From a bacterium (GTDB taxonomy: Bacteria; Pseudomonadota; Gammaproteobacteria; Methylococcales; Methylomonadaceae): a stretch of 34,914 nt of DNA. The stretch is from assembly GCA_030591965.1 (NCBI GenBank), contig JAUVAA010000013.1:1-34914 (forward strand), written 5' to 3'. The notes under the pieces are model-generated. The model was not told where the DNA came from. It worked only from the letters and a program-made list of their open reading frames with translations, and did no database searches. Position numbers and translations under genes: made by a program. Shown here piece by piece: positions 5,498 through 34,914 of the stretch. Each line of letters opens with the position of its first letter. Position 1 is the stretch's first letter.

Positions 5498-5734
5498 CCG
5501 GGCTAATAGAAATTAAAATTATTTATATATAACTTTATTATTACTATTAGCTAGACAAAGTCTTGTGGATAAGTCGTTTTTTGAAATAAAAATCATTTGC
5601 TTAGTTTAACAATAATTGTGTGTTTAAGTTTAGATTAAAATGTTGCTAAGCTGTGCTTAAATGATAGTTTAAAAATTAGTAACAAGTTAACAACAATTAG
5701 CGCATTACGTAAAACACAGACTTATCCACAGGCT
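5498..5734 (-). repeat. DnaA-box/TAR-triplet intergenic element, copy A (reversed, diverged)
   Basis: Read on the minus strand: TGTGGATAA (5730-5722), 149 bases of AT-rich DNA, TTATCCACA (5572-5564), a 14-base spacer, then TAATAGTAATAATAA (5549-5535). The outer edges of the two 9-mers are 167 bp apart, as in copies B and C. The arms extend to a perfect 12-bp inverted repeat, TGTGGATAAGTC/GACTTATCCACA. The middle has diverged from B and C but the ends and triplet tract are conserved. It abuts the tesA stop codon and fills the space to the next gene. Confidence 0.7.
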
Positions 5735-18166: not shown

Positions 18167-18355
18167 CTTATAGTATTAAATCACCCACATAAAACCATTA
18201 TTTCCATATTAAAGCATTCAATTCTTTCCTATTAGGTCTTCTGTTTTTTCATCTAGCTCAATACAAAAAATATGCACGTCAAACCCCCGTATTAGGTAAA
18301 CTCCACACAGGCAAGATCAAACTATTCAGTACGGTAATAACTCAGGAGAATAAAA

Positions 18356-18916: not shown

Positions 18917-18954
18917 CAATCCTGTATGAAGCTGAATCTTGCGCAATTTCTTGT

Positions 18955-18973
18955 TCCCAAACGGAGTTTGGGA
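18955..18973. repeat. Perfect short palindrome (TCCCAAAC-GGA-GTTTGGGA)
   Basis: An 8-bp perfect stem with a 3-base loop, between convergent genes. This unit type (CCCAAAC..GTTTGGG) is a known kind of dispersed palindromic repeat in gammaproteobacteria. Could serve both genes as terminator. Confidence 0.6.
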
Positions 18974-18982
18974 TCGCAAAAT

Positions 18983-19010
18983 ATTGGCGGACTAAAGCCA
19001 CGCCCTACCG
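18983..19010. repeat. Dispersed ACTAAAGCC-ACGCCCTAC repeat
   Basis: TTGGCGGACTAAAGCCACGC followed by CCTACCG. It matches the right half of the hairpin at 22831-22884 (ACTGAAGCCACGCTCTAC) and the complement of 538-561. Confidence 0.5.
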
Positions 19011-19019
19011 AAAATACGA

Positions 19020-20204
19020 TTACCCTGCTTTTAAATCTAGCACACACAATTCTTTCGCGGCATGTAACTCACCGTTTAATAATAAGTCTTTAAGCTTTTC
19101 TGTACGCACCATATACACTTCTGTGTGCTCTTTAAACGCTTGCGGTAAATGAAAACGCTCTAGTTGTGATAAATGACCATCAAAAGCGGCTGAGACGCAG
19201 AGTAAATCCAGTAAAAAATTACGCTCTTGTTCTGAAACTTCATCAAGAATGGTTAGAAAATCTTCCCAGTTATCGTATTCTTTATTTTCTTCGATATTAA
19301 ATTTGTCACATAAACGGATTAATAACACTAACATATTTGGATGATAATTCTGCGCTAGCACCATCATGGTCGCAACGGCTCGAACTGATCCTTCTCGTGC
19401 TTTAGGCCCAAGCTGATCAATCAATTCATCGGTTAAAATATCGCTAATAATATGTTCCGCGAGTTTATTACCAAAGAGTCTCAAGCGTGCTTCTTTAGCC
19501 ACTTTATATAAAGTGAATGCATCCCATATTCCAGTAATCGGAATGGCTACCCAGCTAAAGGTAAGTCGCACATCCCCTTTACCAAACAGACGAATCAAAA
19601 TAAACTTTACCGCTAAACCAGTTAAGATGACTTTCGCTTTGTATAAAAAAGCGACCATAACCAATTTAGATTTGGATAAATGTTTAAGCGGATCTATACC
19701 CAAATAATGAATAATTGGGTCTGGTACTTCCAAAGCCGCACGCGCTAAAAGATTTGGCACAGCATCATCACCCGGTAAACAGGAGCCTTTTACCGCCTGA
19801 TTATGACCTGTCAAACAGGCTAAACTGTAGACTATTTTCATACCTAGCCAAAATAATACTGACATTTCAAGAATCAGCATCACAATAAGCACACTACCAT
19901 AGAGTAAATAATAAGAGGTACTATCCATGGTATCCATATAAGTCCACTCGACCCATATAGTGACAAAAGTGGTTAAAGCACCAATGGCAAATGCAATGAC
20001 CGCAGCAAAAGCGGTAATATTAGCAGACAATGTTTTTAAAGTAATATCTGGAGCCAAGTCATCGATACTGACATTTTCCATGCCTGCTGTACCTGATTTT
20101 TGCGCCAGATAGCGATAATATTTAACGCCTATGTTTTCTAAAAATCCTGCTTCCTCTTCACGACTATAAGCCGCTTTTTTTTCTTGTTTCATTTCTTCAG
20201 ACAT
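19020..20204 (-). CDS. Multi-pass membrane protein, LBF_2804-like family
   Basis: 394 residues from ATG at 20204, which has AGGA 6 bases upstream; the frame starts 12 bases earlier at a GTG touching the upstream stop. Membrane helices are seen at about 62-88 (ITAFAAVIAFAIGALTTFVT), 100-135, and around 185-230. The cytosolic C-terminal half (~250-394) is helical and charged, ending with a TerB-like feel (LLDLLCVSAAFDGHLSQLER). I associate it with the LBF_2804 family, which is found next to TMEM143/DUF3754 genes, as here with the preceding gene stopping 13 bases upstream. Function unknown; the pair probably forms a membrane complex (inference). Confidence 0.7.
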   Translation of the reverse strand: MSEEMKQEKKAAYSREEEAGFLENIGVKYYRYLAQKSGTAGMENVSIDDLAPDITLKTLSANITAFAAVIAFAIGALTTFVTIWVEWTYMDTMDSTSYYLLYGSVLIVMLILEMSVLFWLGMKIVYSLACLTGHNQAVKGSCLPGDDAVPNLLARAALEVPDPIIHYLGIDPLKHLSKSKLVMVAFLYKAKVILTGLAVKFILIRLFGKGDVRLTFSWVAIPITGIWDAFTLYKVAKEARLRLFGNKLAEHIISDILTDELIDQLGPKAREGSVRAVATMMVLAQNYHPNMLVLLIRLCDKFNIEENKEYDNWEDFLTILDEVSEQERNFLLDLLCVSAAFDGHLSQLERFHLPQAFKEHTEVYMVRTEKLKDLLLNGELHAAKELCVLDLKAG

Positions 20205-20216
20205 TTTTATCCTCAC

Positions 20217-21485
20217 TTAAGCTATAACTCTATTATCAATCACCTGATCCCATTGCTGTCTTAATTTACTATTTGCTTGGGCTAATGGAATGGCATTGAT
20301 CAATTGATCAGAACGCGATAATAACGATGATTTTTGTAGTTTTCCTAGGCCATCATCAATCTCAAAATCCATGGGAATCGCATATTTTTCGTGTATATAA
20401 CTTTCAATACGTTGATCTAAATTGGCTCGACTCGTTTCACCATCAACTAATAAAAAGAAGTACGCAAGTATCGCTTCTTTACATTCTTCCGCTTCCGCTG
20501 TATCAGCTAAATAAGTCAGCGCACCCATATTATTATCTAAGCTGTAAAAATATAGATTCTTGGTTAAAGTGGCGCTGTATTTAGCTCGCTGCGAAAAAAT
20601 CTTAGATATTTGCCTCCATAACAAGCCCAGTAAACCACCAATAGCAATTAATGCAGACATAGGATCAACAGTAGCGCTGAGTTTACCAATCGTTGCCATT
20701 ACACCGCCAGCGGTTCCCCCTCCTCCCGTTACGGCTAATTTAATTTTATCGAAAAGGCGCATTTGTATGCGTGTATTAGGAAATTGCATTTCCAAATCTT
20801 CACGCGGAATATCTTTAAATAATTTTAAATACACGACATCATTGTCATTGCTAATGCCAAATACATTTAAGGCTTCATCGGCTTTTTTTTCTGCTTTTTG
20901 TACCGACATTTTTTTGTTATTAATGAAATGTTCTATCCATTGCTGGCGATTTTTCGGCTGTAGCAAAACAAATAAACGTCGATAAATTAAAATATCAATG
21001 GGCTGTTTTTTAAAGCTGAGTTTTTTCCAGTTACGATACAATTTTTGTTGTATTGCCGAACCACGATAAAACAACGCGACTTCAGAAAAATCTTCAAAAT
21101 CGACAGAAACCTGCACACCATAAGGCGAAATTTTATTTAAAGCCTCATTCAAATCATCTTCTGAAATTCGCTCATAATTAGCATCTTCCAAAATAGCGTA
21201 CAGTTTCTCTTTTAAATGAGTTAGCTCTGTGCCGTTATTTTCTTGCGGATTAATTAAGGTATCTCGATCGGGATTAAACGGTAAATACAGTTGCTTTAAA
21301 TCCTGTAAATGAGCATGAGATTGAGCGTGGAATAATGAGCGATATGTTGAGCAGAATTGTTTGAATACATTGTGCTGCTCTGCGGGTAGTAACTCGGCAG
21401 TTAATAAGTCACTGATCAATCTATCTAAACTAATGGGGATAAAACGTTCCAATACGTCGGCTTGATAATGGGTGTTGTTTTGCAT
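20217..21485 (-). CDS. TMEM143/DUF3754-like protein
   Basis: 422 residues. Recognised by the N-terminal ERFIPISLDRLISDLL, the central RGSAIQQKLYRNWKKLSFKK, YLKLFKDIPREDLEMQFPNT and the Gly-rich membrane region VTGGGGTAGGVMATIGKLSA..SALIAIGGLLGLLWRQI, all typical of DUF3754/TMEM143 proteins. Human TMEM143 is a mitochondrial membrane protein of unknown role; bacterial relatives are equally uncharacterised. One or two membrane segments lie at about 255-300; the rest is soluble. First gene of a two-gene unit with the LBF_2804-like protein and divergent from the DUF937 gene. Confidence 0.78.
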   Translation of the reverse strand: MQNNTHYQADVLERFIPISLDRLISDLLTAELLPAEQHNVFKQFCSTYRSLFHAQSHAHLQDLKQLYLPFNPDRDTLINPQENNGTELTHLKEKLYAILEDANYERISEDDLNEALNKISPYGVQVSVDFEDFSEVALFYRGSAIQQKLYRNWKKLSFKKQPIDILIYRRLFVLLQPKNRQQWIEHFINNKKMSVQKAEKKADEALNVFGISNDNDVVYLKLFKDIPREDLEMQFPNTRIQMRLFDKIKLAVTGGGGTAGGVMATIGKLSATVDPMSALIAIGGLLGLLWRQISKIFSQRAKYSATLTKNLYFYSLDNNMGALTYLADTAEAEECKEAILAYFFLLVDGETSRANLDQRIESYIHEKYAIPMDFEIDDGLGKLQKSSLLSRSDQLINAIPLAQANSKLRQQWDQVIDNRVIA

Positions 21486-21728
21486 GTCTGTTCCTTGTCT
21501 TGCCTATTTATTAAATCATTATCTACCTAGCTAAACCTTAGGGTAAATAATTATTATAGATCTTTTTTACAATCTACCCTGAATATAGCACTAGTAGAAA
21601 CAGTTTAAATGTTTTATATTCAAGCAATGTGTTTTCTTGATTTAAGCCACATCAAATAATTATAAAGCACTGTTTTTATTAAAAATTATTACTATAACCT
21701 AGATATTTTTATATATTAAGGAGGTTTA
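21486..21728. promoter_or_regulatory. Divergent promoter region between TMEM143-like and DUF937 genes
   Basis: 243 bp, very AT-rich. AGGGTA (21540-21545) and TACCCT (21575-21580) form a small inverted repeat with a 29-base gap. A perfect AAGGAGG lies 6 bases before the DUF937 start. No reliable -35/-10 pair could be chosen by eye. Confidence 0.35.
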
Positions 21729-22298
21729 ATGGGAATTTTAGATACACTTTTAAGCGGTCAAAATATTCAACTGGTAACTCAATTAGCAAAAAATAGCGGC
21801 ATTGATAGTGCTGATGTGCAAAAAGTTATTGGTCAATTATTACCCGCTCTTTCTCAGGGAGTAAAAGCTAATGTTAGCCAGTCAGGCGGTATTGATCAGT
21901 TAATCGGCGCTTTAAGTAAAGGTAATCATCAGCAGTATCTGGATAATCCGGAATCTTTATCCGATACTTCTGCCGTTAATGAAGGTAATGCAATTTTAGG
22001 TCATGTATTAGGTAATAAAGAAGCCAGTCGAAATATTGCCGCTCAAACTGCGCAATCTACCGGCGTTAGTAATGACATCGTTAAGCAATTATTACCTTTA
22101 GTTGCGACCGCTATGATGGGTGCTTTAAGCAAAGAAACCAGTAATAGTGCTATCGGAGGCGTGGGTAATTTAGATTTAAGTGGCTTATTGGGTGCTAATG
22201 CTAGCCCTGTTGTCGGCATGGTTACTTCATTTTTAGATGCCGATAACGATGGCGATGTGACTGATGATTTACTTAATTTAGCTAAAAAATTCTTTTAA
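21729..22298 (+). CDS. DUF937 family protein
   Basis: 189 residues, no signal peptide. Helical repeats with the DUF937 pattern: VTQLAKNSGIDSADVQKVIG, LLPALSQGVK, NEGNAILGHVLGNKEASRNI, and VKQLLPLVATAMMGALSK. Near the C-terminus FLDADNDGDVTDDLLNLAKKF resembles an EF-hand-like calcium loop (D-x-D-x-D-G), which is usual for the family. Function unknown (YidB-type in E. coli). It is followed after 22 bases by a BON-LysM gene, so the two are likely cotranscribed. Confidence 0.82.
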   Translation: MGILDTLLSGQNIQLVTQLAKNSGIDSADVQKVIGQLLPALSQGVKANVSQSGGIDQLIGALSKGNHQQYLDNPESLSDTSAVNEGNAILGHVLGNKEASRNIAAQTAQSTGVSNDIVKQLLPLVATAMMGALSKETSNSAIGGVGNLDLSGLLGANASPVVGMVTSFLDADNDGDVTDDLLNLAKKFF

Positions 22299-22320
22299 TC
22301 TATTGTAATTGGAGATACAT

Positions 22321-22806
22321 ATGGGACTTTTTGATTTTGCCAAAGACATAGGCAGTAAACTTTTCACTAGCGATGCGGATGCGGCTAAAAATATTACCGA
22401 CCATATCTTATCGAATAACCCAGGAGTAGAGAATCTTAGCGTCATCTTTAAAGATGGTGAAGCAACACTCATTGCAGAGTCCAATACCTTTGAAGCAGCA
22501 CAAATAGCCGTACTTATGGCGGGAAATGTTAAAGGCGTTACTAAAGTAATACCAAAATTTCAAATTAACGATGTCGCAGACGATACAGAAGCTGAAGCTA
22601 AAACTGAAGCCGATATAGTTGCCGCGTTAGAGCCTGCTAATGTGGAATACTATCTTATTCAGAGCGGTGATTCTTTATCTAAAATTGCTAAAAAATATTA
22701 TAACAATGCCGCAGAATACCCACGTATTTTTGAAGCTAATAAAGAAGTGATTAAAGATCCTGATCTTATCTATCCAGGGCAAAAAATTAGAATTCCTTTG
22801 GATTAA
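22321..22806 (+). CDS. BON-LysM protein, Kbp/YgaU-like
   Basis: 161 residues from ATG 22321 with GGAG 9 bases upstream. N-terminal MGLFDFAKDIGSKLF matches the Kbp start; a BON domain covers about 25-80 (VENLSVIFKDGEATLIAES), an acidic linker follows, and a LysM domain fills about 112-161 (YLIQSGDSLSKIAKKYYNNA then IFEANKEVIKDPDLIYPGQK). The same order and length as E. coli Kbp, a cytosolic potassium-binding protein; LysM domains otherwise bind peptidoglycan, but there is no signal peptide here. Potassium binding is inferred from the family. Confidence 0.88.
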   Translation: MGLFDFAKDIGSKLFTSDADAAKNITDHILSNNPGVENLSVIFKDGEATLIAESNTFEAAQIAVLMAGNVKGVTKVIPKFQINDVADDTEAEAKTEADIVAALEPANVEYYLIQSGDSLSKIAKKYYNNAAEYPRIFEANKEVIKDPDLIYPGQKIRIPLD

Positions 22807-22830
22807 TAGTCGAAATACTTACTTAAAATC

Positions 22831-22873
22831 TGGCTTCAGTTTGTCACTGATAAATATTAGTCGACTGAAGCCA
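22831..22873 (+). terminator. Stem-loop after the LysM gene (dispersed repeat)
   Basis: TGGCTTCAGT and ACTGAAGCCA form a perfect 10-bp stem with a 23-base loop. The right arm and its flank belong to the same family as 18983-19010. Confidence 0.55.
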
Positions 22874-22938
22874 CGCTCTACTCTAAATATAAAAATACAA
22901 ACCTCCCTCTTCATGTTCTTAAAAATTAAGAGAAATGA

Positions 22939-23607
22939 ATGAAATTGTTAACAACCAATTTATCGTTATTATCTTTAACGCTTCTGAGTGCTTGTAGTGG
23001 CAATCAAATCACAGCAGATACTTCAATTAATCAAAGCAGATTCCCCGCGCAAACCTATGTTTATCACTGCGCTGATAATAAAAGTTTTGTGGCTAGAATT
23101 GAGCCTAAAAAAGCATGGTTATTTTTACCCACAAAAACCCTATCTTTGCCGCAAATACCTGCTGCTTCGGGTAGTAAATTTAGTAATGGATCAGCTACTT
23201 TTTGGAATAAAGGAAAATCAGCAATATTTGAAAGCACAACTCAGATTTATAAGAACTGCACCAACAATCGCGCTCAAGCTATCTGGGAACATGCCAAACT
23301 TAATGGCGTAGATTATAGAGCAGTCGGGAATGAACCTGGCTGGTCATTAGAAATAACACACGATCAAACAACCATTTTTACCAGTCATTACGGACAAGAT
23401 AGATATGAATTTGAAACTTCTAAACCACTAATCGATACTGCGGCTCATACTAGAGAGTATCAATTACAAAATAGCTCACATAAATTATCCATTAGCCTAA
23501 GTGCTAAGCTATGTAAAGATACTATGAGTGATCAGTCATTTTCTAGTACTGTAAGCGTTAGGTTAGATAATAAAAAATTTACCGGCTGTGGAAAAGCACT
23601 GCATTAA
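22939..23607 (+). CDS. Lipoprotein with MliC-like and COG3650-like domains
   Basis: 222 residues. A lipoprotein signal has the lipobox LLSAC with Cys19. Residues about 38-108 look like MliC (inhibitor of c-type lysozyme): TYVYHCADNKSFVARI, LPQIPAASGSKFSNGSATFW then NKGKSAIFE, with Cys44 and Cys107 placed for the disulfide. Residues about 125-222 match the COG3650 type domain (YRAVGNEPGWSLEI and a late Cys pair). This suggests an outer-membrane lipoprotein defending peptidoglycan or acting in the envelope. Domain identities are by eye, so the second is less sure. Positioned directly after the LysM gene, with a hairpin between, hence probably separately transcribed. Confidence 0.75.
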   Translation: MKLLTTNLSLLSLTLLSACSGNQITADTSINQSRFPAQTYVYHCADNKSFVARIEPKKAWLFLPTKTLSLPQIPAASGSKFSNGSATFWNKGKSAIFESTTQIYKNCTNNRAQAIWEHAKLNGVDYRAVGNEPGWSLEITHDQTTIFTSHYGQDRYEFETSKPLIDTAAHTREYQLQNSSHKLSISLSAKLCKDTMSDQSFSSTVSVRLDNKKFTGCGKALH

Positions 23608-23652
23608 ATCCTTCTTACTAACACTATTCAACTAATAAGGGACTTTGTAAGC

Positions 23653-24396
23653 ATGTTATCCAATAATCCAAAACAGAAACACCTTCTACTGCTTAGTACC
23701 AGCTTTTGTCTTATCATTTTGGCTATCTTAATCGCTACAGACCCTGTTCCTCAGGATCTTGTTTACCATCTGTTAATTGATCAACGACAGTGGTTTACAG
23801 TACCCAACTTCGCCAATATTATCAGTAATCTACCCTTTGCTACTATTGGGCTATCAGGATTTTTTCTTACTCTGAAAAACAAAGAAACTTCTACCTCTTG
23901 GTACCTATTTTTTATCGGCCTTTTTTTGGTTGCATTCGGTTCAAGCTATTATCACTTACATCCCAATAACCAAACACTGATCTGGGATCGTTTGCCGATG
24001 ACAATCTGTTTTATGAGTTTATTCTCAGCATTATGCGCAGAAAATATTTCCTCTCGATATGAAACAGTAATTCTGCCTGTGGCTATTTTCTTAGGCTTAT
24101 CCAGTGTCATCTACTGGCATTACACGAATGACTTACGATTTTATGCGCTTATTCAGTTTGGTGCTTTGCTTTCTATACCGCTTATATTGAGCTTCTATAA
24201 AAGCCAATATAGCCACCACCATTATCTGCTCTATGGTTTACTTTTCTATATTCTTGCCAAAGTTTTTGAGCTCAACGATAGCTTGACTTTTGAACTAACG
24301 GATCACTTATTAAGTGGTCATACGATCAAACACTTACTTGCTGCCGCGGCTACCTATTGTGTTTATCTCATGTTAAAAAAACGGCTACCCACTTAA
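23653..24396 (+). CDS. Ceramidase-like (CREST superfamily) integral membrane protein
   Basis: 247 residues with about seven hydrophobic segments. Motifs of the alkaline ceramidase/CREST hydrolases: NFANIISNLPFATIG (52-66), GSSYYHLHPNNQTLIWDRLP (96-115; Ser, His101, Asp112) and SGHTIKHLLAA (221-231; His223, His227). His101, His223 and His227 would hold zinc. Family members hydrolyse amide bonds in sphingolipids or act as receptors; in a bacterium the substrate is open. The gene is convergent with the Prs-like gene, with a 29-base gap. Confidence 0.75.
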   Translation: MLSNNPKQKHLLLLSTSFCLIILAILIATDPVPQDLVYHLLIDQRQWFTVPNFANIISNLPFATIGLSGFFLTLKNKETSTSWYLFFIGLFLVAFGSSYYHLHPNNQTLIWDRLPMTICFMSLFSALCAENISSRYETVILPVAIFLGLSSVIYWHYTNDLRFYALIQFGALLSIPLILSFYKSQYSHHHYLLYGLLFYILAKVFELNDSLTFELTDHLLSGHTIKHLLAAAATYCVYLMLKKRLPT

Positions 24397-24425
24397 AGCC
24401 CGTATTCCACTTTGTGCTCTACGAG

Positions 24426-25301
24426 CTACAAAATCTCTCTAACCGCCTTAGCCAATAACTTATCCAGATAAATACATGACGTCGGATGGCTAATACTATC
24501 CGTACTCCAAATGTTTTTTATCCCTGATTGCAAAATATGAGCCTCAGCATCGCCACAAAACAGCGGATGGGTTATCACTGCATCAATTTGTTGAGCGCCA
24601 GCTGCTAATAGCAGGTCAGTTGCCTTAGATAAGGTTCTACCGGTGCTAGCCATATCATCGATAATAACCACAGGCTGCTGACTAAAATCGAAATCCGGCA
24701 AACTTACTTCTACCTGTTTATCTCCATAACGTATTTTTGTCGCCACAGAAAAATCAAAACCAATTTTATTAGCAATAGCCGAAACCCATTGTTCTGACTC
24801 ACCATCGGGACCTAATAACAGTGCATGATCAAATTTCTGCTTAAGAAACTCGGCAATATCATCAGCCGCCGTTAAACTTATCGCATTGCTAATTGGTATC
24901 GCCTGATCTAGCGAAGTAATACGATGCAAATGAGGGTCGACGGTAATCACATCATCAAATAACTCAGCCAACATTTGCCCCATAATCCGTTGACTGACCG
25001 CTTCACCCGGTTGATTGGCAATATCCTGGCGCATATAACTGAGATACGGTGCAATTAGCGTCAGCCGTTTTGCTCCTAATTCTCGAGCCGTTCTGGCGCA
25101 GAATAATAGTTCAATTAATTTATCATTCGGTTGGTTCAAACTACGACAAATAAGCACGTGCTCTGGTAACGAGGGTGGCAAACGTACTAAGCTTTCACCA
25201 TCGGGAAAGTGATGCAGGTGAATACTTTCCGTTGGCATTGCCAAGCGTGCCGCTAACCGTTCTGCCTGTGGTTGATAATCAGGAAATACGAGCATTAACA
25301 T
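24426..25301 (-). CDS. Ribose-phosphate pyrophosphokinase-like protein
   Basis: 291 residues, somewhat shorter than typical Prs (~315). Motifs: FPDGESLVRLP, APYLSYMRQD (84-93) for the ATP/catalytic region, DPHLHR (122-127), flexible-loop basic residues near K189/R191, and the PRPP loop VVIIDDMASTGRT (211-223). These fit ATP plus ribose 5-phosphate to PRPP. The DPHLHR motif and the shorter length resemble archaeal or divergent Prs more than the housekeeping bacterial enzyme, so this is probably a second, specialised copy. AGGAGGA precedes ATG; gap to the upstream phosphorylase gene is 13 bases, so one operon. Confidence 0.85.
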   Translation of the reverse strand: MLMLVFPDYQPQAERLAARLAMPTESIHLHHFPDGESLVRLPPSLPEHVLICRSLNQPNDKLIELLFCARTARELGAKRLTLIAPYLSYMRQDIANQPGEAVSQRIMGQMLAELFDDVITVDPHLHRITSLDQAIPISNAISLTAADDIAEFLKQKFDHALLLGPDGESEQWVSAIANKIGFDFSVATKIRYGDKQVEVSLPDFDFSQQPVVIIDDMASTGRTLSKATDLLLAAGAQQIDAVITHPLFCGDAEAHILQSGIKNIWSTDSISHPTSCIYLDKLLAKAVREIL

Positions 25302-25314
25302 AAGTATTCCTCCT

Positions 25315-26850
25315 TTAAAAATCGACCAGTGGTTTTAACATTTTTTCTCCCTCTCCTATCACATAGCCACTGTCCTGCTGCGCTAAGTTGGTAGAAAAAT
25401 TAAAATCAGCGGGAAACTCTGCATAGATTTGATACAGCGTCTCACCTTTTTTAACTTTATCTCCTAATTTTTTCAATAAATCGACGCCTGCTTTTTTATC
25501 CATCGGCGCACCTGCTAAACGGGCAACTTTCGACATTTGAAAATTATCAATACTGATAACAACCCCATCACGCTCCGCACACACTTGATAACATAATTCT
25601 CCAGGCTGCAAATCAATCTCACGCTCACCTTGCGCTTTGATAATCTCATGCATTTTTTCATAAGCACGCCCCGACTCTAAAATATCTCGAGCGATTGCAT
25701 AGCCTTGCCCACCGCGTACATCAGGATCAAATTCAATAATTCGACCTGCCAATAGTAAAGATTTCTGACGTAAATCCGCGGGCGCATCAGGATCATTATT
25801 CAGTACTTGCATCACATCACGCGCTTCCAATACGGGACCAATGCCCTTACCTATAGGCTGCCTGCCATCGGTGATCATAACTTCTAAATGAATATTCAAA
25901 TGATCACCAACAAATTCGAATAATTTACGCAAAGCTAACGCTTGACGCATATGTCGTACTTTAGCTGTTGGCCCTACTGGAATATCGATAATCAAATGCG
26001 TGGAACCCGCTGCTAATTTTTTAGACAAAATAGAAGCAACCATTTGTCCTTGAGAATCTATACCAAGAGGCCTTTCCACTGAGATTAACAAATCATCCAC
26101 AGGGGCTAGTTTTGCCGTTCCCCCCCAAGATAAACAGCCTCGTTCCTGACGCACTATATCCAGCATCTGATCAGGTTCGAGATTGACATTGGCCAGCACT
26201 TCCATCGTATCTGCCGTACCAGCTGGTGAAGTAATGGCTCGACTGGAGGTTTTAGGAATTAGCATGCCATGTGCAGCAACAATTGGCACTACTAACATCG
26301 AAGTACGATTTCCCGGAATACCACCGATACAATGTTTATCCGCAACGAGAGACTCATGCCAGTTCATGCACTCGCCAGATTCCAACATCGCTTGAGTTAA
26401 ATACAATATCTCATCGCGATCAAGATTATTCTGCCCAGTTGCAACTAAAAATGCAGCCATTTCCATTTTTGAATAACGAGTTTCAGCAATATCGTTAGCA
26501 ATTTCATTAAAATCCGCTTGATTTAATCGTTCACCGTTAATTTTACGGCGCACAGCATCCATCGATTTAGGTGGTTCCGCGTGATTAACCGTGACGAGTG
26601 TTCCTTCTTTAACATTCAAATAATTAAAAGCTTGTTGCGATAAGCCTAGTTCTCCTGGCAGTACAATTGAATTATCATCCACGACATTCAGCACAGCTAA
26701 TAGTTTTGACCCGTTATTACTTACCTGAATTTTGGACAAAGCCTGAAATCCTTCCGCTCGATAAACACTACATTCGCGGTTTAAATAAGCGACATTTTCA
26801 TGATAGGTATCAATTCCCACCTGACGAACTTTTAAAGTATCAATGCTCAT
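25315..26850 (-). CDS. AMP phosphorylase/thymidine phosphorylase family enzyme
   Basis: 511 residues from ATG 26850 ([10 protein letters not shown]); a longer frame to a TTG at 26898 is less likely. The N-terminal ~85-residue extension before [19 protein letters not shown] is characteristic of archaeal-type AMP phosphorylase (DeoA-like) rather than E. coli DeoA (~440). Conserved catalytic and phosphate sites: [14 protein letters not shown] (171-184), [20 protein letters not shown]. Reaction in the family: nucleoside monophosphate (or nucleoside) plus phosphate to base plus ribose 1,5-bisphosphate (or ribose 1-phosphate). With the Prs-like neighbour it likely serves nucleotide salvage; no RubisCO or isomerase gene is seen. 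Its upstream region is copy B of the DnaA-box element. Confidence 0.88.
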
Positions 26851-26952
26851 AGTTTTTTTATTATTGTATTTTAAGAATAGCGAATGTGATGAAGCCAACT
26901 TTAAACTCTACCCATCTACATTGTCAGGAAAAAAATAGTTAACACTTACTGA

Positions 26953-27190
26953 TAGCCTGTGTATAACTCTGTGGATTATGTTAGTAACATACTGTGCGCA
27001 ATCTGTAGCTTAATTTTAGACCTATTTTTTCACTCAGTTTCAATACACTTAAGCCCAAACTTGATAACAAGCTTAAAATGATCGTAGTTCTTTGATAGTA
27101 AATATAAAAAATGGCTTATCCACAGATTTTAAGCTAACTAATAGTAATAATAAGTTTATATAAATATTCAATCTTATTTATATATTAAGC
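26953..27190 (+). repeat. DnaA-box/TAR-triplet intergenic element, copy B
   Basis: Near-identical to copy C (30940-31177); I count about 18 differences over 238-239 positions, about 92% identity. Order: TGTGTATAA (26958-26966, one mismatch from the box), TGTGGATTA (26970-26978), AT-rich middle with TTAAGC/GCTTAA hairpin potential, TTATCCACA (27116-27124), 14-base spacer, TAATAGTAATAATAA (27139-27153), then a very AT-rich stretch to 27190. Same orientation as C; bracket gene 27271-30573. Confidence 0.8.
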
Positions 27191-27270
27191 AGCGGCTTTA
27201 AACATTAAAGTCTTAAAAACAGCTTCTATAACCAATGTACGGATCAATACAAAAGCCACTGTTTGTATAT

Positions 27271-30200
27271 TCAAATATGATTAGCTTCAGTTGGAATTTC
27301 CAATAAACCTTTTTGATTATTTGTAGCCAAAGCTTTGAGTTGCTCGGTAAATTCTGCTTCCGGTATAGGTTTACTAAAATAGTAACCTTGGTATTGCTTA
27401 CATTCGACAGATTGTAAAAAATTCAATTGCTCTAAAGTTTCAACTCCTTCAGCAATTACCTGAAAACCAAGCAATTTGGCCATTGAAATAATTGTTTCCA
27501 CAATAGCAGCATCATTTGAATCAGTATGAATGTCACGAACGAAGGCTTGATCAATTTTCAATTGATCGAGAGGAAGTTTCTTTAAATAAACCAAGGAAGA
27601 ATAACCAGTACCAAAATCATCAATAGAAAATTTAACCCCAGTGGATTTTAGCGCCCACATTTTATCGATTGTTTGCTGAATATTATCTATAACAATACCT
27701 TCAGTCAACTCCAGTGTTAAATAGTGTGGGTTAATTTTTGAAGCAGTGATTAATTCTTGTAATTGCGGCGCAAACTCCTTTTTACGAAATTGTTTAGGGC
27801 TAACATTCACTGCTAAGTGGAAATCTTTAGGTAAGCAATACTGTTCCCATAGTTTGAGTTGGTAACAAGCAGTGGTAAGTACCCAATTTCCAATAGCTAT
27901 AATGAGTCCCGTTTCTTCAGCGACTGGAATAAATTCAGCGGGTGAAATCATTCCTCGTACTGGATGATTCCAACGTATTAGAGCTTCTGCACCAATAATA
28001 TTAGAGTGGTTGCCATACTGTGGCTGGTAATACAATTGCAGCTCATTATTATGCAAGGCTTGGCGCAAATCTTTTTCTAAAGCTAAGCGTGAATCAGCTG
28101 TCACTTGCATGCTTGGGTGAAAAAAATTAAAAGTATTTCGGCCTGCTTCTTTAGCACGGTACATTGCTGTATCAGCCTGTTTTAGAAGTGTATCCGCTGT
28201 TTCAGAATCACCAGAAAATAAAGTAATACCGATGCTTGTGGTTATTATATGTTTATGTTGTTGAATATTAACGGGGTTAACTAATGCCTGAATGATCTTT
28301 TCAGCAATGTCTTGTGTTTGTTTTACAGCGGTGTCTTTTTCACTGTCTAGTTCTTTCAGTAATATAACAAATTCGTCACCACCTAAGCGCGCAACGGTAT
28401 CCTCTTCTCGAAGCAACGCTTTCATACGTTGCCCTACCTCTATTAAAAACAGATCACCGACCGAGTGACCCAGGGAATCGTTCAAGTGTTTAAAATTATC
28501 CAGATCGAGAAATAAAATAGCGGAAAAATTTGCGTGCCGTTTAGAGATTTTTTGCCCCTGATCTAACCGATCCAAAAATAAACGCCGATTAGGTAAACTA
28601 GTCAATGGATCATAATAGGCAAGTCGCTCGATAGCTTCATTAGCTTTTTTAGCGTCTGTAAGATCAATATCGATGCAAAACATTTCAGCACTTTCTTCAG
28701 TTTCACCTAATTTGATATGACTGGAATAGACCGGGACAATTGAACCATCTTTACGCTGCAAACGTAATTCTCCTGGTGGAATTTCACTATTGTAATGTAG
28801 AAAATTATCAGTTGCTGTAATCACCATATCTTTGAGTTCGAGAGGAATAATAAGATCTTCCAACTTTTTTCCTATCGCTTCTTCTTCGGTATAACCGTAA
28901 ACAGTTTCACTCATCTTATTCCAAAAAATTACATCTCTTTTGTGGTTATAGCCTTGTACGGCGATATTGGGCATTTTTTCAAAAATTTGTCGAAAGCGAC
29001 TCTCGCTGGTTTGCAGAGATTTTAATGCTCGTTTTGTTTTGGAAATATCACGCGTTATCCAAATAACACATCGTGACTCACCTTGTTTATACTGCATAGG
29101 AGCGGTTCGCCCCTCAAAATAACATCTGCCTTGCGCTAACTCCAATTCATATTCTAAGACTTGTGTTTTATTGGTGTCACAAGTCATCTGTATAGTGCTT
29201 ATGATTTGTAAAGCTAGAGGAATGGGGAGAGTATCCATAATATTCTGATGCAATAATGTTTTAGCATCTTGAACAAGTAATTGCTGTTCAGAACCATAAA
29301 TATCTATGTAGGTTCCTTGTTCATTCAATACAAATGCAATATCTGGGATAGCAGAGACAAAAGCTGCAAATTTTTGATTACTCTCCACTAAAGCGTATTG
29401 AGCTTTATATTGTTCACTGACATCGTGAAATACCAGAATAACACCGGTAATATCATTATTTTCATCAATGATAGGCGCTGCACTATCAGCGATTTGTATT
29501 AATGACCCACTACGAGTTATTAAGCTGCAGCCATTCGATAAGTGAATTACTTTTTTGCTCTCAAGTACTTTAGCGACAGGTGTATTAACAGTTTTTCCTG
29601 TTTCAGTATTACAAAGTTTAAATATTTTATTGATAGGCTGACCAAGTGCTTCAGCTAAAGTCCACTCAGTCATTTGTTCAGCGATGGGATTCATGCGAGT
29701 AATGCGTTGCTGGGTATCTGTTGCGATAACCGCATCACCAATAGAGTTTAAAGTGGTTTCTAGGTTTTTTTCACTTAATTTAAGCGCTTTTTCAGTAGCA
29801 ACTTGAGTGCTAATATCAATTGAGTAGCCAATCATACCTATTGGATTATGCTGACTATCGTATTGTAAAGATAAAGATAAATGTGCGTGGAAACTATCGC
29901 CATTTTTTCTAAGCATCACCACACGGATCTCATGAAAACCTTTAGCCTGAAGTGGGGTAATGACTTTTTTTTGTAAGAACTCATATTCTTCATTTGGGTA
30001 AACAAAGCTGATATGTTGTCCGATCGCCTCATTATTATTAAAGCCAAATAGTCGTTCCGCACCTTTATTCCAGCTAGTGACATAACCTGCTAAATCAGTT
30101 GCCACCACTGAGTCATGAATTTGATCTATAATTTGAGCTTGCTCAAGAACATAAGCTTCGGCCTTTTTTCGAGCAGTGATGTCTCGATCCATTCCTCGAT

Positions 30201-30573
30201 ACCCAAGTAACTCTCCTTGTTCACAAAAAAATGGAATACCACTGGTTTCCATAATGACCTGATGTCCGTCTTTATGCAGGTTAATATTTTCCAGATGATT
30301 AAAAGCACGCTTTGCTAAGATTATATCTTGGAAAAGAATTCCAACACGTTGTGCTTCTTCAGCGGACATTAAATCAAAAGGCGTTTTACCTATTAGCTCT
30401 TCAGCTTGGTAGCCAAGTAAATCAATACATTTAGGGCTACAATAAGTATATATGCCGTTTTGGTCTACTTCCCAAATCCAATCAGACGAGTTTTCGACTA
30501 AATTACGATACCGTTCTTCGCTCTCGCGTAGAGAATTAAGCAGGGTTGTTTCTAATTCTGCCGTTGAAATCAT
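27271..30573 (-). CDS. PAS x5-GGDEF-EAL cyclic di-GMP enzyme
   Basis: 1100 residues, soluble. Five PAS domains in series, roughly 15-135, 143-260, 268-388, 398-512 and 524-642, several with the PAC ending (e.g. GYRGMDRDITARKKAE). Then GGDEF about 650-815: YYDPLTSLPNRRLFLDRL, active site RLGGDEFVILL (GGDEF 731-735) and an inhibitory I-site RxxD at R722-D725. Then EAL about 830-1080: GAEALIRWNHP (E863), DDFGTGYSSL (D985, D986), QLKIDQAFV, ITEGVE-like AEGVETLEQL. All key residues look intact, so synthase and phosphodiesterase activity are both possible; which dominates cannot be read. The PAS array suggests redox, haem or ligand sensing. Single gene, bracketed by direct repeats B and C. Confidence 0.92.
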   Translation of the reverse strand: MISTAELETTLLNSLRESEERYRNLVENSSDWIWEVDQNGIYTYCSPKCIDLLGYQAEELIGKTPFDLMSAEEAQRVGILFQDIILAKRAFNHLENINLHKDGHQVIMETSGIPFFCEQGELLGYRGMDRDITARKKAEAYVLEQAQIIDQIHDSVVATDLAGYVTSWNKGAERLFGFNNNEAIGQHISFVYPNEEYEFLQKKVITPLQAKGFHEIRVVMLRKNGDSFHAHLSLSLQYDSQHNPIGMIGYSIDISTQVATEKALKLSEKNLETTLNSIGDAVIATDTQQRITRMNPIAEQMTEWTLAEALGQPINKIFKLCNTETGKTVNTPVAKVLESKKVIHLSNGCSLITRSGSLIQIADSAAPIIDENNDITGVILVFHDVSEQYKAQYALVESNQKFAAFVSAIPDIAFVLNEQGTYIDIYGSEQQLLVQDAKTLLHQNIMDTLPIPLALQIISTIQMTCDTNKTQVLEYELELAQGRCYFEGRTAPMQYKQGESRCVIWITRDISKTKRALKSLQTSESRFRQIFEKMPNIAVQGYNHKRDVIFWNKMSETVYGYTEEEAIGKKLEDLIIPLELKDMVITATDNFLHYNSEIPPGELRLQRKDGSIVPVYSSHIKLGETEESAEMFCIDIDLTDAKKANEAIERLAYYDPLTSLPNRRLFLDRLDQGQKISKRHANFSAILFLDLDNFKHLNDSLGHSVGDLFLIEVGQRMKALLREEDTVARLGGDEFVILLKELDSEKDTAVKQTQDIAEKIIQALVNPVNIQQHKHIITTSIGITLFSGDSETADTLLKQADTAMYRAKEAGRNTFNFFHPSMQVTADSRLALEKDLRQALHNNELQLYYQPQYGNHSNIIGAEALIRWNHPVRGMISPAEFIPVAEETGLIIAIGNWVLTTACYQLKLWEQYCLPKDFHLAVNVSPKQFRKKEFAPQLQELITASKINPHYLTLELTEGIVIDNIQQTIDKMWALKSTGVKFSIDDFGTGYSSLVYLKKLPLDQLKIDQAFVRDIHTDSNDAAIVETIISMAKLLGFQVIAEGVETLEQLNFLQSVECKQYQGYYFSKPIPEAEFTEQLKALATNNQKGLLEIPTEANHI

Positions 30574-30793
30574 ACTAATTGACCTTTAACCTGTATAAAA
30601 AATATGTAAATTTCATATAATTCAGTCATCTATCGTTAATAAGGAAAAAATAAATTGTTACTTATCAATGACTGTACCCAAATAATGTTTATATTGCCAG
30701 TGTTAAACACACACATTCCTCAGTTATTACAGTCTCGAAGCATTCGTATGGTAACCGTTCAGATCCTCCCCCTAGAAAACATCAAAATACCTT

Positions 30794-30865
30794 GTCATTC
30801 CTGCATGCTTTTAGCAGGAATCTATATCAACAAACAGATTCCCGATTAAATACTTCGGGAATGAC
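30794..30865. repeat. Two-hairpin dispersed repeat (GTCATTCC...GGAATGAC), copy 1
   Basis: ATTCCTGC (30797-30804)/GCAGGAAT (30814-30821) and ATTCCCGA (30838-30845)/TCGGGAAT (30855-30862) form two 8-bp hairpins, and outer GTCATTCC/GGAATGAC ends are also complementary. REP-like. Related copies at 31289-31377 and 34871-34914. A 64-codon open frame over this stretch is not a gene. Confidence 0.65.
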
Positions 30866-30939
30866 GATATTTTTATGAAGGTCTGTGAACAGTTACTTCG
30901 TATGTTCTAACTCCTAAAATAGGATCTAAAATAATAAAC

Positions 30940-31177
30940 TAGCTGTGGATAACTCTGTGGATTATGTGAGTAACACACTGTGCGCAATCTGTAGCTTAAT
31001 TTTAGCGCTGTATTTTCACTCAGTTTCAATACACTTAAGCCCAAACTTGATAACAAGCTTAAAATTATCTTAATACTTTGATAATAAATATAAAAAATGA
31101 CTTATCCACAGATATTAAGCTTACTAATAGTAATAATAAGGTTATATAAAATATTCAATCTTATTTATATATTAAGC
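30940..31177 (+). repeat. DnaA-box/TAR-triplet intergenic element, copy C (best preserved)
   Basis: TGTGGATAA (30944-30952), TGTGGATTA (30956-30964), 137 bases of AT-rich DNA, TTATCCACA (31102-31110; both outer boxes perfect), 14-base spacer GATATTAAGCTTAC, triplets TAA-TAG-TAA-TAA-TAA (31125-31139), then GGTTATATAAAATATTC and more AT-rich DNA. Outer 9-mers form CTGTGGATAA/TTATCCACAG inverted arms. Looks like a DnaA-box plus DnaA-trio unwinding module, or a duplicated regulatory element. Confidence 0.8.
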
Positions 31178-31288
31178 GCTAACAAATTTTTTTATCTACC
31201 GCTTAAAAGTAAAATTTCTCAGAATTACAGCAAAGAATACACATTAAATAAAACCTGTAGCTAAAGGATACAAGATATTTCTTAGCTC

Positions 31289-31377
31289 ATCATCCTGCAT
31301 GCTGTTAGCCGGAATCTATGTTTAACGTGGATTCCCGATAAAGCTTGTGTCCAACGCTTGACTGACGATATTTTTAT
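31289..31377. repeat. Degenerate copy of the GTCATTCC dispersed repeat
   Basis: CATCCTGCATGCTGTTAGCC then GGAATCTATG, later GGATTCCCGATAAAGC and GACGATATTTTTAT, aligns with 30796-30877 but has lost the perfect stems. Confidence 0.45.
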
Positions 31378-31393
31378 ATGTATTTGTCCCTGA

Positions 31394-31552
31394 ATAAGAA
31401 GAAGTTACAAAAACCTATTCCAGGCTATTGATACTTCGTTTCAGGGGCGGGATATTGGTAAAATTTTTAATGAGGGGATGAATACTTACGAAACTTTAGC
31501 ACTACCAGACCTCAAAGGACTGTTAGTGTTTTCGGGTATTATTGAATTTTAA
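31394..31552 (+). pseudogene. Unrecognised C-terminal gene remnant
   Basis: Short open stretch ending in TAA that reads FQAIDTSFQGRDIGKIFNEG and then MNTYETLALPDLKGLLVFSG (ending IIEF). It has natural protein composition and a plausible C-terminus but no start; TGA lies upstream at 31391. I do not recognise it. Probably the tail of a deleted gene. Confidence 0.4.
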
Positions 31553-31677
31553 TTCCTAAATACTTGTTAACTTAGGGGGAGAAACATTTAGGAATGAGGT
31601 TTTATAATTTCCTAAAATATAGTCTGTATAAAACTTGTGCAATACAGGAGAATCAGTAACGATAATCCACGAAACGG

Positions 31678-32385
31678 TCATTTTTTGCCCCGATAATTAG
31701 CAAAGGATACGCAGGCTAAAAACTGCGCTGCTACGCGTAGCTGATTGATAGCACTTATTTTGGATACTGGGTACTGTCTACGCCATTTTTTCCAACCAGA
31801 TAACAGAGCTGTGTCATTTTGATGCAGGTTTGAAGTCAGAGCTAATATCTTTTGGTCAATTTGTTCAGTGGAATTAAAAAATATAGTTAAAATGTTAGGG
31901 TGATTTTGCCAGAGTAGCCGGTGAAAAAATGCAAATAAGGCTGTACGTTAGTATTGATTAACACTGTGTTGTTAATTTCTAAAGGGTGGCGATTTATCCA
32001 ATCTATGGCAATCATGCCACCCATAGAAATTGCAATAAGATTAATATTTTTTTCCTGCAAGTTGCGAGCGCAAAGCTTCAGTCAGGCCTTCTATGGTATT
32101 GGGACTGGTTTGTTGATATAAACCACCATTACCTAGAATATCTAAAGTCAGTATCTCGGTATCAGGAAATTGTTGGGTTAATGACTGTGTAAATTCATCC
32201 CAGTGGCGCTGTTCGCGTAAGAGCCCACGAATTAAAACAAAGCAGGATTTATTTTTGTTGCATGACTTGACTTGACTATGGCTTTCATTCAGCCATTTTT
32301 TATAAGACAGAGAAGAATAAAACCACCTGATTTTATTCTTCCTTACGAGCTTAGAGTTGTTATTTATGGATAATAAATAAGCCAA
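31678..32385 (-). pseudogene. Alpha/beta-hydrolase pseudogene (two frameshifts)
   Basis: The first part (32385-32041) reads SCFVLIRGLLREQRHWDEFT and TLDILGNGGLYQQTSPNTIE, the oxyanion and early strands of an alpha/beta hydrolase, then runs out at AGKKY-stop within an A7 run. In another frame the gene continues with NINLIAISMGGMIAIDWINR (nucleophile elbow, Ser in SMGG), breaks again around 31930, and resumes as HRLLWQNHPNILTIFFNSTE to ALLSGWKKWRRQYPVSKISA, stopping at 31678. The catalytic Asp/His end is missing. No working product. It starts one base after the Usp stop. Confidence 0.75.
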
Positions 32386-32386
32386 A

Positions 32387-33253
32387 TTACCTAAGCAACA
32401 GCAACGGCCTTTTAGTTTTCAACAACATCTTATGCGTAAAACTACCCAATAAAATATCGTGTAAACGTGTATGGCTAAACGCGCCCATAATGGTCATATC
32501 AATATTATGAGTGCTTTGATAAGCGCATAACTCTTCTTCTGCTTTACCTTGTAAGCTGGCAGTGATAATTTCAATATCACCAGCAGCACGTAGTTTACTA
32601 GCGGCTTGTTTTAGTAACGTTTCTGCACTGTCTTTTTTACCGACACAAACCAAATGACATACTAAACCTTTATACAAAGGGCTAGTAGCAACCATATCCA
32701 CGGCTTTATCGGCGGCTTCACTGCCATCATAAGCAATCATGATTTGTTCTGGTGCTTTGAAAGCTTCATAAGCGACTAGAATGGGGCGATGTAAAGAGCG
32801 AATCAAGCCATCAATTTTAGCTCCGATTTCATTTTCCTGATCTTCATGCTGTTTACCCCGTGCGCCAACGACTAAAACACGAATATCTTGCTCTATGTCG
32901 TTTAATGATTCCAGTAAACTACCATGCTGTAAGCGGGTCAAAGGATTAGTAATACCAGATTGAATAACGCGTTCTTTAGCTTCAGCTAATACAGCTTTAC
33001 CTTGTTGCAAACGAATTTTGCTTTGCTCTTGTTCTTGATCTGCCATATCTTCAAGCAAGTGTTCACGGCTATCCATACCGATATTGCCTGACAGATCAGT
33101 ATTTGCAGCTTTTTCGTGATGGTGATCAATGGTATGTAGTAACTTTAAAGGTACATCCACGCGTTGTGCGATCCATGCAGCGTAATCACAAACGGCGTTA
33201 GTTAAAGCTGAACCATCGATACATGCTAGCACTATCTTTTTATTAGTATTCAT
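32387..33253 (-). CDS. Tandem universal stress protein (UspA domains x2)
   Basis: 288 residues with two Usp domains. Domain 1 (about 5-150) starts with KIVLACIDGSALTNAVCDYA and has VLVVGARGKQ; domain 2 (about 158-288) starts with PEQIMIAYDGSEAADKAVDM and has TIMGAFSHTRLHDILLGSFT, where GS near the end fits the ATP-binding G-S/T loop, though the first Gly pair is modified. Likely an ATP-binding stress or regulatory protein in the cytosol. Its ATG shares one base with the SulP stop (TAATG), so translation is coupled, which suggests it controls or serves the transporter. Confidence 0.9.
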   Translation of the reverse strand: MNTNKKIVLACIDGSALTNAVCDYAAWIAQRVDVPLKLLHTIDHHHEKAANTDLSGNIGMDSREHLLEDMADQEQEQSKIRLQQGKAVLAEAKERVIQSGITNPLTRLQHGSLLESLNDIEQDIRVLVVGARGKQHEDQENEIGAKIDGLIRSLHRPILVAYEAFKAPEQIMIAYDGSEAADKAVDMVATSPLYKGLVCHLVCVGKKDSAETLLKQAASKLRAAGDIEIITASLQGKAEEELCAYQSTHNIDMTIMGAFSHTRLHDILLGSFTHKMLLKTKRPLLLLR

Positions 33254-34746
33254 TAGTGTCCTCCCATTACTTTTTCAATTTCTTCAGGTTTATCGTGTAC
33301 CCCAAAACGGTCAATAATCGTGGTACTGGCTTCATTTAAACCGATAACCTCTACTTCTGCACCTTCACGGCGGAATTTAATCACCACTTTATCTAAAGCG
33401 CCAACCGAAGATATATCCCAAAAATGCGCGCGCTGTAGATCGATCACGACTTTGCTAACCGCTTCTTTAAAATCAAAGCTATTGGTAAATTTATCGGCAG
33501 AATTAAAGAACACTTGGCCAACGACTTCATAGCTACGCGTATCGCTAGGCTCATCAAAGCTAGACTCGACATACATAAAATGACTGATTTTGTTGGCGAA
33601 GAATAGAGCGCCTAACAGTACACCGGCCAATACGCCTAAAGCGAGGTTATGTGTCCAGACAACAACGGTCACTGTGGATAACATAATGATATTAGTGGAT
33701 AGTGGGTGATGCTTTAGGTCAATAATTGAACCCCAGCTAAACGTTCCGATAGAGACCATAATCATTACGGCAACTAAAGCGGCCATCGGAATTTGTTTAA
33801 TCCACTCGTCCAAAAAAACTACCATAATGAGTAAAAAGACACCGGCCACCATAGTAGATAAACGGCCACGGCCACCTGATTTTACATTAATGACCGATTG
33901 ACCAATCATTGCGCAACCTGCCATACCTCCTAATAACCCTGCACCGATATTAGCAATTCCTTGCCCCTTGCATTCGCGATTTTTATCACTGCTGGTATCG
34001 GTTAAATCATCAACAATCGTGGCTGTCATAAGTGATTCTAATAAACCGACAACGGCTAATGGTAAAGAATACGGCAAAATTATTTTCAGCGTTTCTAGGT
34101 TTAGAGGGACTTCAGGCCATAGAAAAATAGGTAAAGTATCGGGTAATTCTCCCATATCACCGACCGTACGAATATCCAATTGTAAGTAGACAGCCAAACC
34201 AGATAATACGGTGATGCACACTAAAGGCGAAGGAATTGATTTACCGATAAAAGGTACGTAGGGAAATAAATAAATAATCCCCAAGCCGCCTGCAGTCATA
34301 GCATAAACATGCCATGAAACATTAGTTAATTCAGGCAATTGTGCCATAAAAATCAGAATGGCTAAGGCATTTACAAAACCGGTAACAACCGAGAGGGAAA
34401 TAAAACTCATCAAACTACCGAGCTTTAAATAACCGGCAATAATCTGAAAAACACCGGTTAATAAAGTGGCAGCTAATAAATATTGCAGGCCGTGATCTTT
34501 AACTAAGGTCACCATTAATAAAGCCATCGCACCGGTCGCAGCACTAATCATACCCGGACGACCACCAATCAGCGCAGTAATAACGGCAATACAAAACGAG
34601 GCATATAAGCCCACTTTCGGATCAACCCCAGCAATAATTGAGAAGGCAATCGCCTCTGGTATCAGAGCTAAAGCCACGACAGTTCCTGCCAGTAGATCAC
34701 CTCGGACATTGCCGAGCCAATCTTGTTTTTTCGAGAGTAAGAGCAT
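33253..34746 (-). CDS. SulP family inorganic anion transporter with STAS domain
   Basis: 497 residues from ATG 34746 with AGGAAA 6 bases upstream; the longer frame to 34902 runs into a dispersed repeat and is rejected. Transporter core of about 10-14 membrane segments: [20 protein letters not shown] (13-32), [77 protein letters not shown] domain at about 405-490 ([20 protein letters not shown]). Length and sequence are like compact bacterial SulP proteins that move bicarbonate or sulfate, often with Na+; the substrate cannot be assigned. Followed by the coupled Usp gene. Confidence 0.9.
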
Positions 34747-34870
34747 AAATTTCCTGTTTATAAAAAGAGAATGACGTGAATTTTCGCGACGCCAAAGGGT
34801 TAAGGTAAAAAGAAGGTAATCGTATGGAGTGGAGTTATACCAATCCCAATAAATAATCACTGTAATAGCC

Positions 34871-34914
34871 GTCATTCCCGAAATATTTAATCGGGAATCC
34901 ATGCATACACTATA
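34871..34914. repeat. GTCATTCC dispersed repeat, copy 3 (runs to window end)
   Basis: ATTCCCGA (34874-34881)/TCGGGAAT (34891-34898) hairpin, matching the second hairpin of 30794-30865 in reverse order. It lies upstream of the SulP gene. Confidence 0.6.

Follow-up and report, generated by a model that had tools for sequence, protein, structure and literature searches.

Background

The accepted view is that a bacterial chromosome uses a single oriC, and an excerpt of PMC4403523 (Gao 2015) treats as an open question whether natural chromosomes use more; at that time, it states, there was no evidence that any bacterial chromosome has two functional origins, and predicted doubles are listed. That multiple oriCs are predicted is stated again for Ori-Finder 2022 in part of PMC10225481. 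The elements of an unwinding region are captured by the rule for the basal unwinding system (BUS), which is given in an excerpt of PMC8287927 as a DnaA box with at most two mismatches, a spacer of at most 16 bp and at least three 3'-NAN-5' trios. For bipartite oriCs, passages of PMC4285127 and PMC6669920 indicate that the unwinding element is confined to one of the two regions. In gammaproteobacterial origins the trio motif is TAATAATAA in the gammaBOriS account, and GATC richness is not common to all of them (both from passages of PMC7174414). The main text of that paper contains no word beginning with Methylo, and in a literature search on origins of Methyloprofundus, Methylomonas or Bathymodiolus no paper on a Methyloprofundus origin was among the matches listed.

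The DNA analysed here is contig C85 in its full length (34.9 kb), referred to as the window; it comes from an assembly of 2.93 Mb in 223 contigs, designated G000. Its relatives in the same genus include MAGs of Methyloprofundus and methanotrophs that live as gill symbionts in Bathymodiolus mussels. Judged from sequence comparisons, a module near the right end of the window is very probably one full unit of chromosomal oriC in a methanotroph of the Methyloprofundus type, which has several copies of it and carries dnaA elsewhere.

Results and discussion

Architecture of unit B

A sequence-only reading of the window had recorded two convergent DnaA boxes, an extra box next to one of them and TAG/TAA-type triplets in front of an AT-rich tract. 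All of these elements are present where they had been placed, correct to the base, with the outer edges of the boxes 167 bp apart, and the proposal of an origin-type unwinding module made of a DnaA box and DnaA-trios is well supported by the sequence features described below. Its trio element stands, but by the BUS rule, as excerpted from PMC8287927, the spacer is 13 bp long and not 14, and the trios are found on the lower strand and not as TAA-TAG-TAA on the upper one.

The module, designated unit B, extends on the plus strand from the R4-like box through the AT-rich tract (30944-31177), its box-to-trio part covering 30944-31139. The R4-like DnaA box at 30944-30952 lies on the minus strand, reading TGTGGATAA on the plus strand and TTATCCACA on the minus strand; it is separated by CTC from a second minus-strand box, TGTGGATTA on the plus strand, at 30956-30964 (array position -146). 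Two TGT half-boxes follow on the minus strand at 30979 and 30990 (30979-30992; array positions -123 and -112, each present in 17/17 representative units, see below), and half-boxes of an opposed array, ACA on the plus strand, are found at 31031 and 31053 (31031-31055; positions -71 and -49). The array sites at -82 and -37 are not ACA in unit B. An IHF-like site, TAATACTTTGATA, is located on the plus strand at 31071-31083 and shows no mismatch to YAANNNNTTGATW, the IHF consensus used for scoring; its TTGAT is at -24, matching E. coli oriC. The R1-like box, TTATCCACA on the plus strand at 31102-31110, adjoins the trios, which read 3'-GAT-TAT-CAT-TAT-TAT-5' on the lower (minus) strand at 31124-31139 after the 13-bp spacer (TAATAGTAATAATAA at 31125-31139). 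Directly beyond the trios, an AT-rich tract at 31140-31177 is presumed to be the unwinding region. Unit B retains 0.94 of 83 positions conserved in the genus. An RNA reading of the module was dropped because Rfam and tRNA scans of the window gave no match.

Palindromic repeats of the CATTCCTGC/CGTCATTCCCGA type flank unit B (30799-30866 and 31293-31319) and are found again where the contig ends (34870-34899).

Further copies in the window and in the assembly

The box-N14-trio pattern occurs three times exactly in the window and not at all in 100 shuffles of it. The second occurrence belongs to unit A (26958-27190, plus strand; module 26958-27153), which is 92% identical to unit B and consists of boxes at 26958-26966 (one mismatch) and 27116-27124, an IHF-like site at 27085-27097 (one mismatch) and trios at 27138-27153. 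The third, unit C, lies on the minus strand at the ancestral site (5500-5730; module 5535-5730), is about 60% identical to units A and B, and has its boxes at 5722-5730 and 5564-5572, its IHF-like site at 5591-5603 (one mismatch) and its trios at 5535-5550. The convergent boxes span the same 167-bp outer distance in A (26958-27124), B and C (5564-5730), and all three units have an R1-like box without mismatches, a 13-bp spacer and five trios.

A count of copies in the whole genome, which the sequence-only reading had proposed as a check, returned A, B and C as the only full units, all of them in the window; no further full copy was detected in the assembly, the other eight of 11 matches being fragments of 16-33 bases with E values above 0.002. 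TTATCCACA itself occurs 45 times in the 2.93-Mb assembly compared to 28 sites for a reversed control pattern, and nine of the 45 are on the 34.9-kb window contig, for which an even spread would give 0.54.

With up to three mismatches, the box/trio pattern is also found on contigs C109 and C143 of the same assembly. The match on C143 (G000:C143:17093, L244) is box/trio-like with three mismatches. A related motif, TTATGCAGA-N14-TAATAGTAATAATTA, is present at G000:C109:7186 (L242), G009:C2:7255 (L243) and G008:C114:4643; in L242 and L243 it precedes iteron-like repeats and a gene for a Rep3 initiator, and the G009 copy is on a 42-kb contig. The motif probably marks a plasmid origin in which DnaA-trio-like repeats are used as well.

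Conservation of the unit among relatives

With at most three mismatches, the pattern was detected in 33 of 101 genomes, 32 of 61 within the family and one of 40 from other families, and a reversed control pattern gave three matches in the 101 genomes. A DNA search of the relatives matched 36 of the 101 genomes, but many of these matches cover just 22-27 bases of the double box, and the pattern search was therefore used for counting. For a detailed comparison, 37 units with at most three mismatches from 16 genomes were stacked; 220 bases upstream within the same piece were required, and three rows with five mismatches (G010, G016, G017) were excluded. Units whose interiors are less than 75% identical served as the 17 representatives.

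Allowing one mismatch, the R4-like and R1-like boxes are exactly 158 bp apart, start to start, in 32 of the 37 units; two units have no partner box at 158, and the partner is found at 159 bp in two units and at 163 bp in one, which score 0.53-0.64 in the fixed register. Ungapped identity among the representatives is highest in the boxes (95% and 91%) and the trios (93%), reaches 57% in the interior and is lower in the AT tail (48%), the spacer (37%) and the flanks (29-36%). TGT half-boxes at -158, -146, -123 and -112 and ACA half-boxes at -82, -71, -49 and +6 are present in 16-17 of the 17 representatives, ACA at -37 in 13. As read from these positions, the predicted TGT and ACA half-boxes are two opposed arrays, as an excerpt of PMC4285127 describes for E. 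coli oriC. The GATC content is low, zero to two per unit compared to 11 in E. coli oriC, and the units are thus not GATC-rich. GATC richness goes with Dam/SeqA control and is found in taxa that carry Dam. The best IHF-like match, a sequence match to the consensus, is at -31 in 28 of 32 units.

Position of the units on the chromosome

The sequence-only reading had also named the relation to the GC-skew minimum as informative. In the near-complete genome G009 the cumulative minimum, determined in 10-kb bins over the last 400 kb, is at 4076 kb and, at this resolution, adjoins the two units (4077.2 and 4078.8 kb). In the same genome, a skew curve of coarse resolution (20 samples of 20 kb) peaks at 1.75-1.97 Mb, and a dif-like site is found at 1949 kb. 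On a 195-kb contig of G001 the minimum falls into the 65-70 kb bin with units at 68.6-70.4 kb; the skew there is weak. Around the units of G005 no clean V was seen, the skew being positive on the left side at 20-60 kb. The dif-like pattern was found in seven of 12 genomes, with three mismatches in each; the point opposite to it is 3 kb from a unit in G053, about 64 kb in G009 and 186 kb in G027.

Clusters of parS-like sites are located 2-12 kb from a unit in five of six Methyloprofundus genomes. Since in G000 and G012 the reversed control matched at least as often as parS itself, it is the clustering near the units and not the number of sites that counts as evidence. The window's genome has a single parS-like site, on a contig other than that of the window. 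A search of 11 genomes detected dnaN in 10 of them (nine above the family cut-off), always within 10 kb of a unit and in six of the 10 about 16 bp from one; in the window's assembly, one of the 11, it was not found.

Displacement of dnaA

No dnaA, dnaN, gidA or mioC was found among the window genes scanned, as the sequence-only reading had noted; dnaA is on contig C75, 17.4 of whose 18.0 kb were scanned without finding a unit at up to five mismatches. Among 12 Methyloprofundus genomes, dnaA is on a contig other than that of the units in nine, and 15, 26 and 308 kb away in the other three, the last being G009, where it lies inside the right arm. Among 16 genomes from the family's other genera in which both a unit and dnaA were found, 10 have the two no more than 0.7 kb apart; the six exceptions have dnaA on another contig (G024, G042) or 10-41 kb away (G025, G027, G031, G053). 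In G033 and G059, which belong to one genus, units are present on both sides of dnaA. The pattern search found no unit in G043, G044 and G084, in which dnaA is present. The term ectopic, used in the earlier reading, was not upheld, given the units of relatives next to the skew minimum (G009), parS clusters and dnaN, and next to dnaA in the 10 genomes of other genera.

The place corresponding to that of dnaA is held in Methyloprofundus by a gene for a 473-aa protein (4024-5445, minus strand in the window), which in several relatives is found between two units. No family match was obtained for the protein. Its structural model (mean pLDDT 77.7) predicts, for half of the protein, a fold resembling NMN/NaMN adenylyltransferases (NMNAT; best Foldseek E value 6.5e-7). 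The idea that it might be a diverged DnaA was rejected on the lack of a family match and the predicted NMNAT-like fold. Of 240 relatives found, 80 loci encoding the protein were kept, 13 of which have a unit at up to five mismatches (L161-L169, L172, L173, L175, L177), and these 13 are named Methyloprofundus, Methylococcaceae or Bathymodiolus symbionts. In the other 67 loci, from other genera such as Azoarcus and Thauera and some of them short, no unit was detected. For genomes of the Methyloprofundus family the position of dnaA is a poor guide to the origin.

Number and descent of the units

Two or more units with at most three mismatches are carried by 15 of 18 Methyloprofundus genomes, including that of the window; G016 has one, and none was found at this threshold in G003 and G013, listed as 90% and 71% complete. 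The common pair combines a unit upstream of the 473-aa gene (type I) with one that adjoins dnaN (type II), for example in G001, G004, G007, G015 and G017. Four genomes, G000, G005, G008 and G012, have type I (unit C) together with the tandem pair A/B, 21-30 kb from C in G000, G005 and G012 and on a separate contig in G008. A and B are 0.5-0.6 kb apart in G008 and G012 and about 4 kb apart in the window. The part of the window from 18300 to 34914, with A and B inside, is inverted relative to G005:C62.

In other genera of the family, two origin-like units are located about 9.3 kb apart on G022:C74 (L034, L048), and on G032:C15 (L049) two such units follow dnaA in tandem, 0.34 kb apart, the second with four mismatches.

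A single tree of the modules was calculated from sequences of about 240 bases. It groups A/B with type II units (support 0.94), and C falls in one group with A, B and the units beside dnaN (0.91), away from the type I units that share its place. The tandem pair may therefore derive from the dnaN-side unit and have taken over its role as that unit decayed, a proposal that is tentative because it comes from one tree of short sequences in which C is also misplaced. The two tandem copies of G005, of G008 and of G012 each group together within their own genome (support 0.86-1.0), suggesting gene conversion or repeated duplication.

At the dnaN/gene-side place, the four genomes with A/B score 0.51 (G005), 0.53 (G008), 0.57 (G012) and 0.58 (window) over the 83 positions, and the highest of 336 background windows, taken entirely from G009, scores 0.51; the G005 value does not exceed this background, and its remnant was called on visible homology. 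In the window, the probable remnant of the type II unit is on the minus strand at 3128-3350, limits approximate, and is cut off towards the contig start. Thus, the dnaN-side unit looks decayed in all four A/B genomes. Transposases of the IS4 family and rve type are encoded at 610-2500, beyond the cut-off remnant, which lies near 3190.

Which copies could be active

By analogy with known oriC biology, DnaA would nucleate on the strong boxes, fill the half-box arrays with the help of IHF bending and move from the R1-like box onto the lower-strand trios, upon which the AT-rich tract would open and the helicase be loaded. The question is at which of the copies this could take place. Positions conserved outside the clade vary less than the others in each unit of the window: 12 of 89 versus 45 of 136 in A (Fisher p 9e-4), 12 of 89 versus 52 of 136 in B (p 4e-5) and 7 of 89 versus 51 of 136 in C (p 3e-7). 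By this comparison, the motif positions are constrained in each of A, B and C.

Skew at third codon positions was followed along the G005 contig, separately for genes on the plus and on the minus strand. The values are -0.106 and -0.206 over the 24 kb to the left of C, 0.007 and -0.236 between C and A/B, and 0.239 and 0.212 right of A/B. Between C and A/B, plus-strand genes are thus near zero and minus-strand genes left-arm-like, and the right-arm pattern sets in only past A/B. Initiation at A/B, or a mixture, would fit this better than initiation at C alone; as the contig has another reversal further left, at 20-60 kb, this is suggestive only.

Methyloprofundus may have a natural multi-origin chromosome with two to three oriC copies under selection, in which the clade of the window would initiate at C and at A/B, 21-30 kb apart, after one unit had been copied away and the original had decayed. 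We regard this as possible, though less likely than not. An alternative arrangement, in which only C at the ancestral site works as an origin and A and B are redundant DnaA-binding copies or silent backups, appears rather unlikely, at perhaps one chance among a few. It would agree with the ancestral locus of C and with its retention of 0.99 of the conserved positions compared to 0.93-0.94 for A and B, and any firing of A or B is a prediction from sequence; but it would not account for the constraint on motif positions in A and B, for right-arm skew in G005 beginning only past A/B, or for the decayed appearance of the dnaN-side unit in all four genomes that have A/B.

Another function for the units would be DnaA titration or reactivation, as the sequence-only reading had proposed by comparing the module to datA and DARS. 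Such loci are clusters of DnaA boxes without an unwinding element, away from the origin, and would act by DnaA binding or nucleotide exchange without unwinding. Dense DnaA boxes with an IHF-like site fit such loci, and extra oriC copies would titrate DnaA anyway. The units, however, keep trios at a fixed distance and an AT-rich tract, and those of relatives are at the origin, coincide with the skew minimum and have dnaN and parS nearby, making a role of this kind improbable.

A dispersed, MITE-like repeat or a plasmid or phage origin captured in the chromosome would be in line with near-identical copies 4 kb apart and with transposases and palindromic repeats nearby, but was rejected as very improbable: there are no further full copies in the assembly, a blastn search (E 0.01) of 72,556 plasmid and 50,697 phage records gave no match, and the chromosomal position is conserved in relatives. 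Equally remote is a DnaA-regulated promoter element of the neighbouring genes, since, although A and B flank a PAS-GGDEF-EAL gene (27271-30573, minus strand) and A adjoins a pyrimidine phosphorylase-like gene (25315-26898, minus strand), the PAS-GGDEF-EAL gene has no match in the A/B-bearing contigs of G008 and G012, where the units stay and the neighbour changes.

Comparison with known origins

The repetition of a whole origin in nature is unusual, and the multi-copy chromosomes of Methyloprofundus could be used to test whether bacteria use more than one origin. The family provides a natural series, from units on both sides of dnaA, to a pair around another gene with dnaA gone, to a tandem pair 21-30 kb off with the dnaN-side unit decayed. 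The units also give a comparative picture of which oriC positions are important in a gammaproteobacterium without a GATC-rich origin.

Compared to E. coli oriC, order and orientation of the strong boxes are the same (inverted R4/R1), with trios beside R1 on the DUE side, and in both the IHF site places TTGAT at -24 from R1; scored against the consensus used for the units, E. coli's own IHF site differs at more than one position. On the trio side E. coli reads TTATCCACA-N13-CTAATAAG, CTAATA after N13 being common to both, as is TGTGGATAACTCTGT at the R4 end. Differences are the distance of the strong boxes (180 bp in E. coli, 158 in Methyloprofundus units), a longer trio run and almost no GATC in the latter, their location not between mnmG and mioC, and the presence of two or three units in most Methyloprofundus genomes. 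The predicted units of the window also agree with the BUS as described in excerpts of PMC8287927 and PMC6669920, having a 13-bp spacer and five 3'-NAN-5' trios that start with GAT, and differ in that several BUS-bearing units are present on one chromosome.

In the bipartite oriCs of Bacillus subtilis and Helicobacter pylori, two DnaA-box regions flank dnaA, according to passages of PMC4285127 and PMC6669920. A similar arrangement is seen in relatives such as G001, G007 and G015, in which a gene of about 1.4 kb lies between the regions, beside dnaN; in the window the second region looks decayed. In contrast to bipartite origins, both Methyloprofundus regions carry trios and an AT-rich tract, and the gene between them is NMNAT-like by its predicted fold and not dnaA. 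Fused chromosomes of Vibrio cholerae likewise have more than one origin on one natural chromosome, but an excerpt of PMC6284228 describes two origin types, oriC and the plasmid-type ori2, whereas the Methyloprofundus units are copies of one oriC. Natural keeping of two to three full copies of one oriC per chromosome, with a tandem pair moved by 21-30 kb, was not described in any of the literature matches listed. The kind of element is known, a gammaproteobacterial oriC with a BUS; the variation lies in its natural multiplication and its separation from dnaA.
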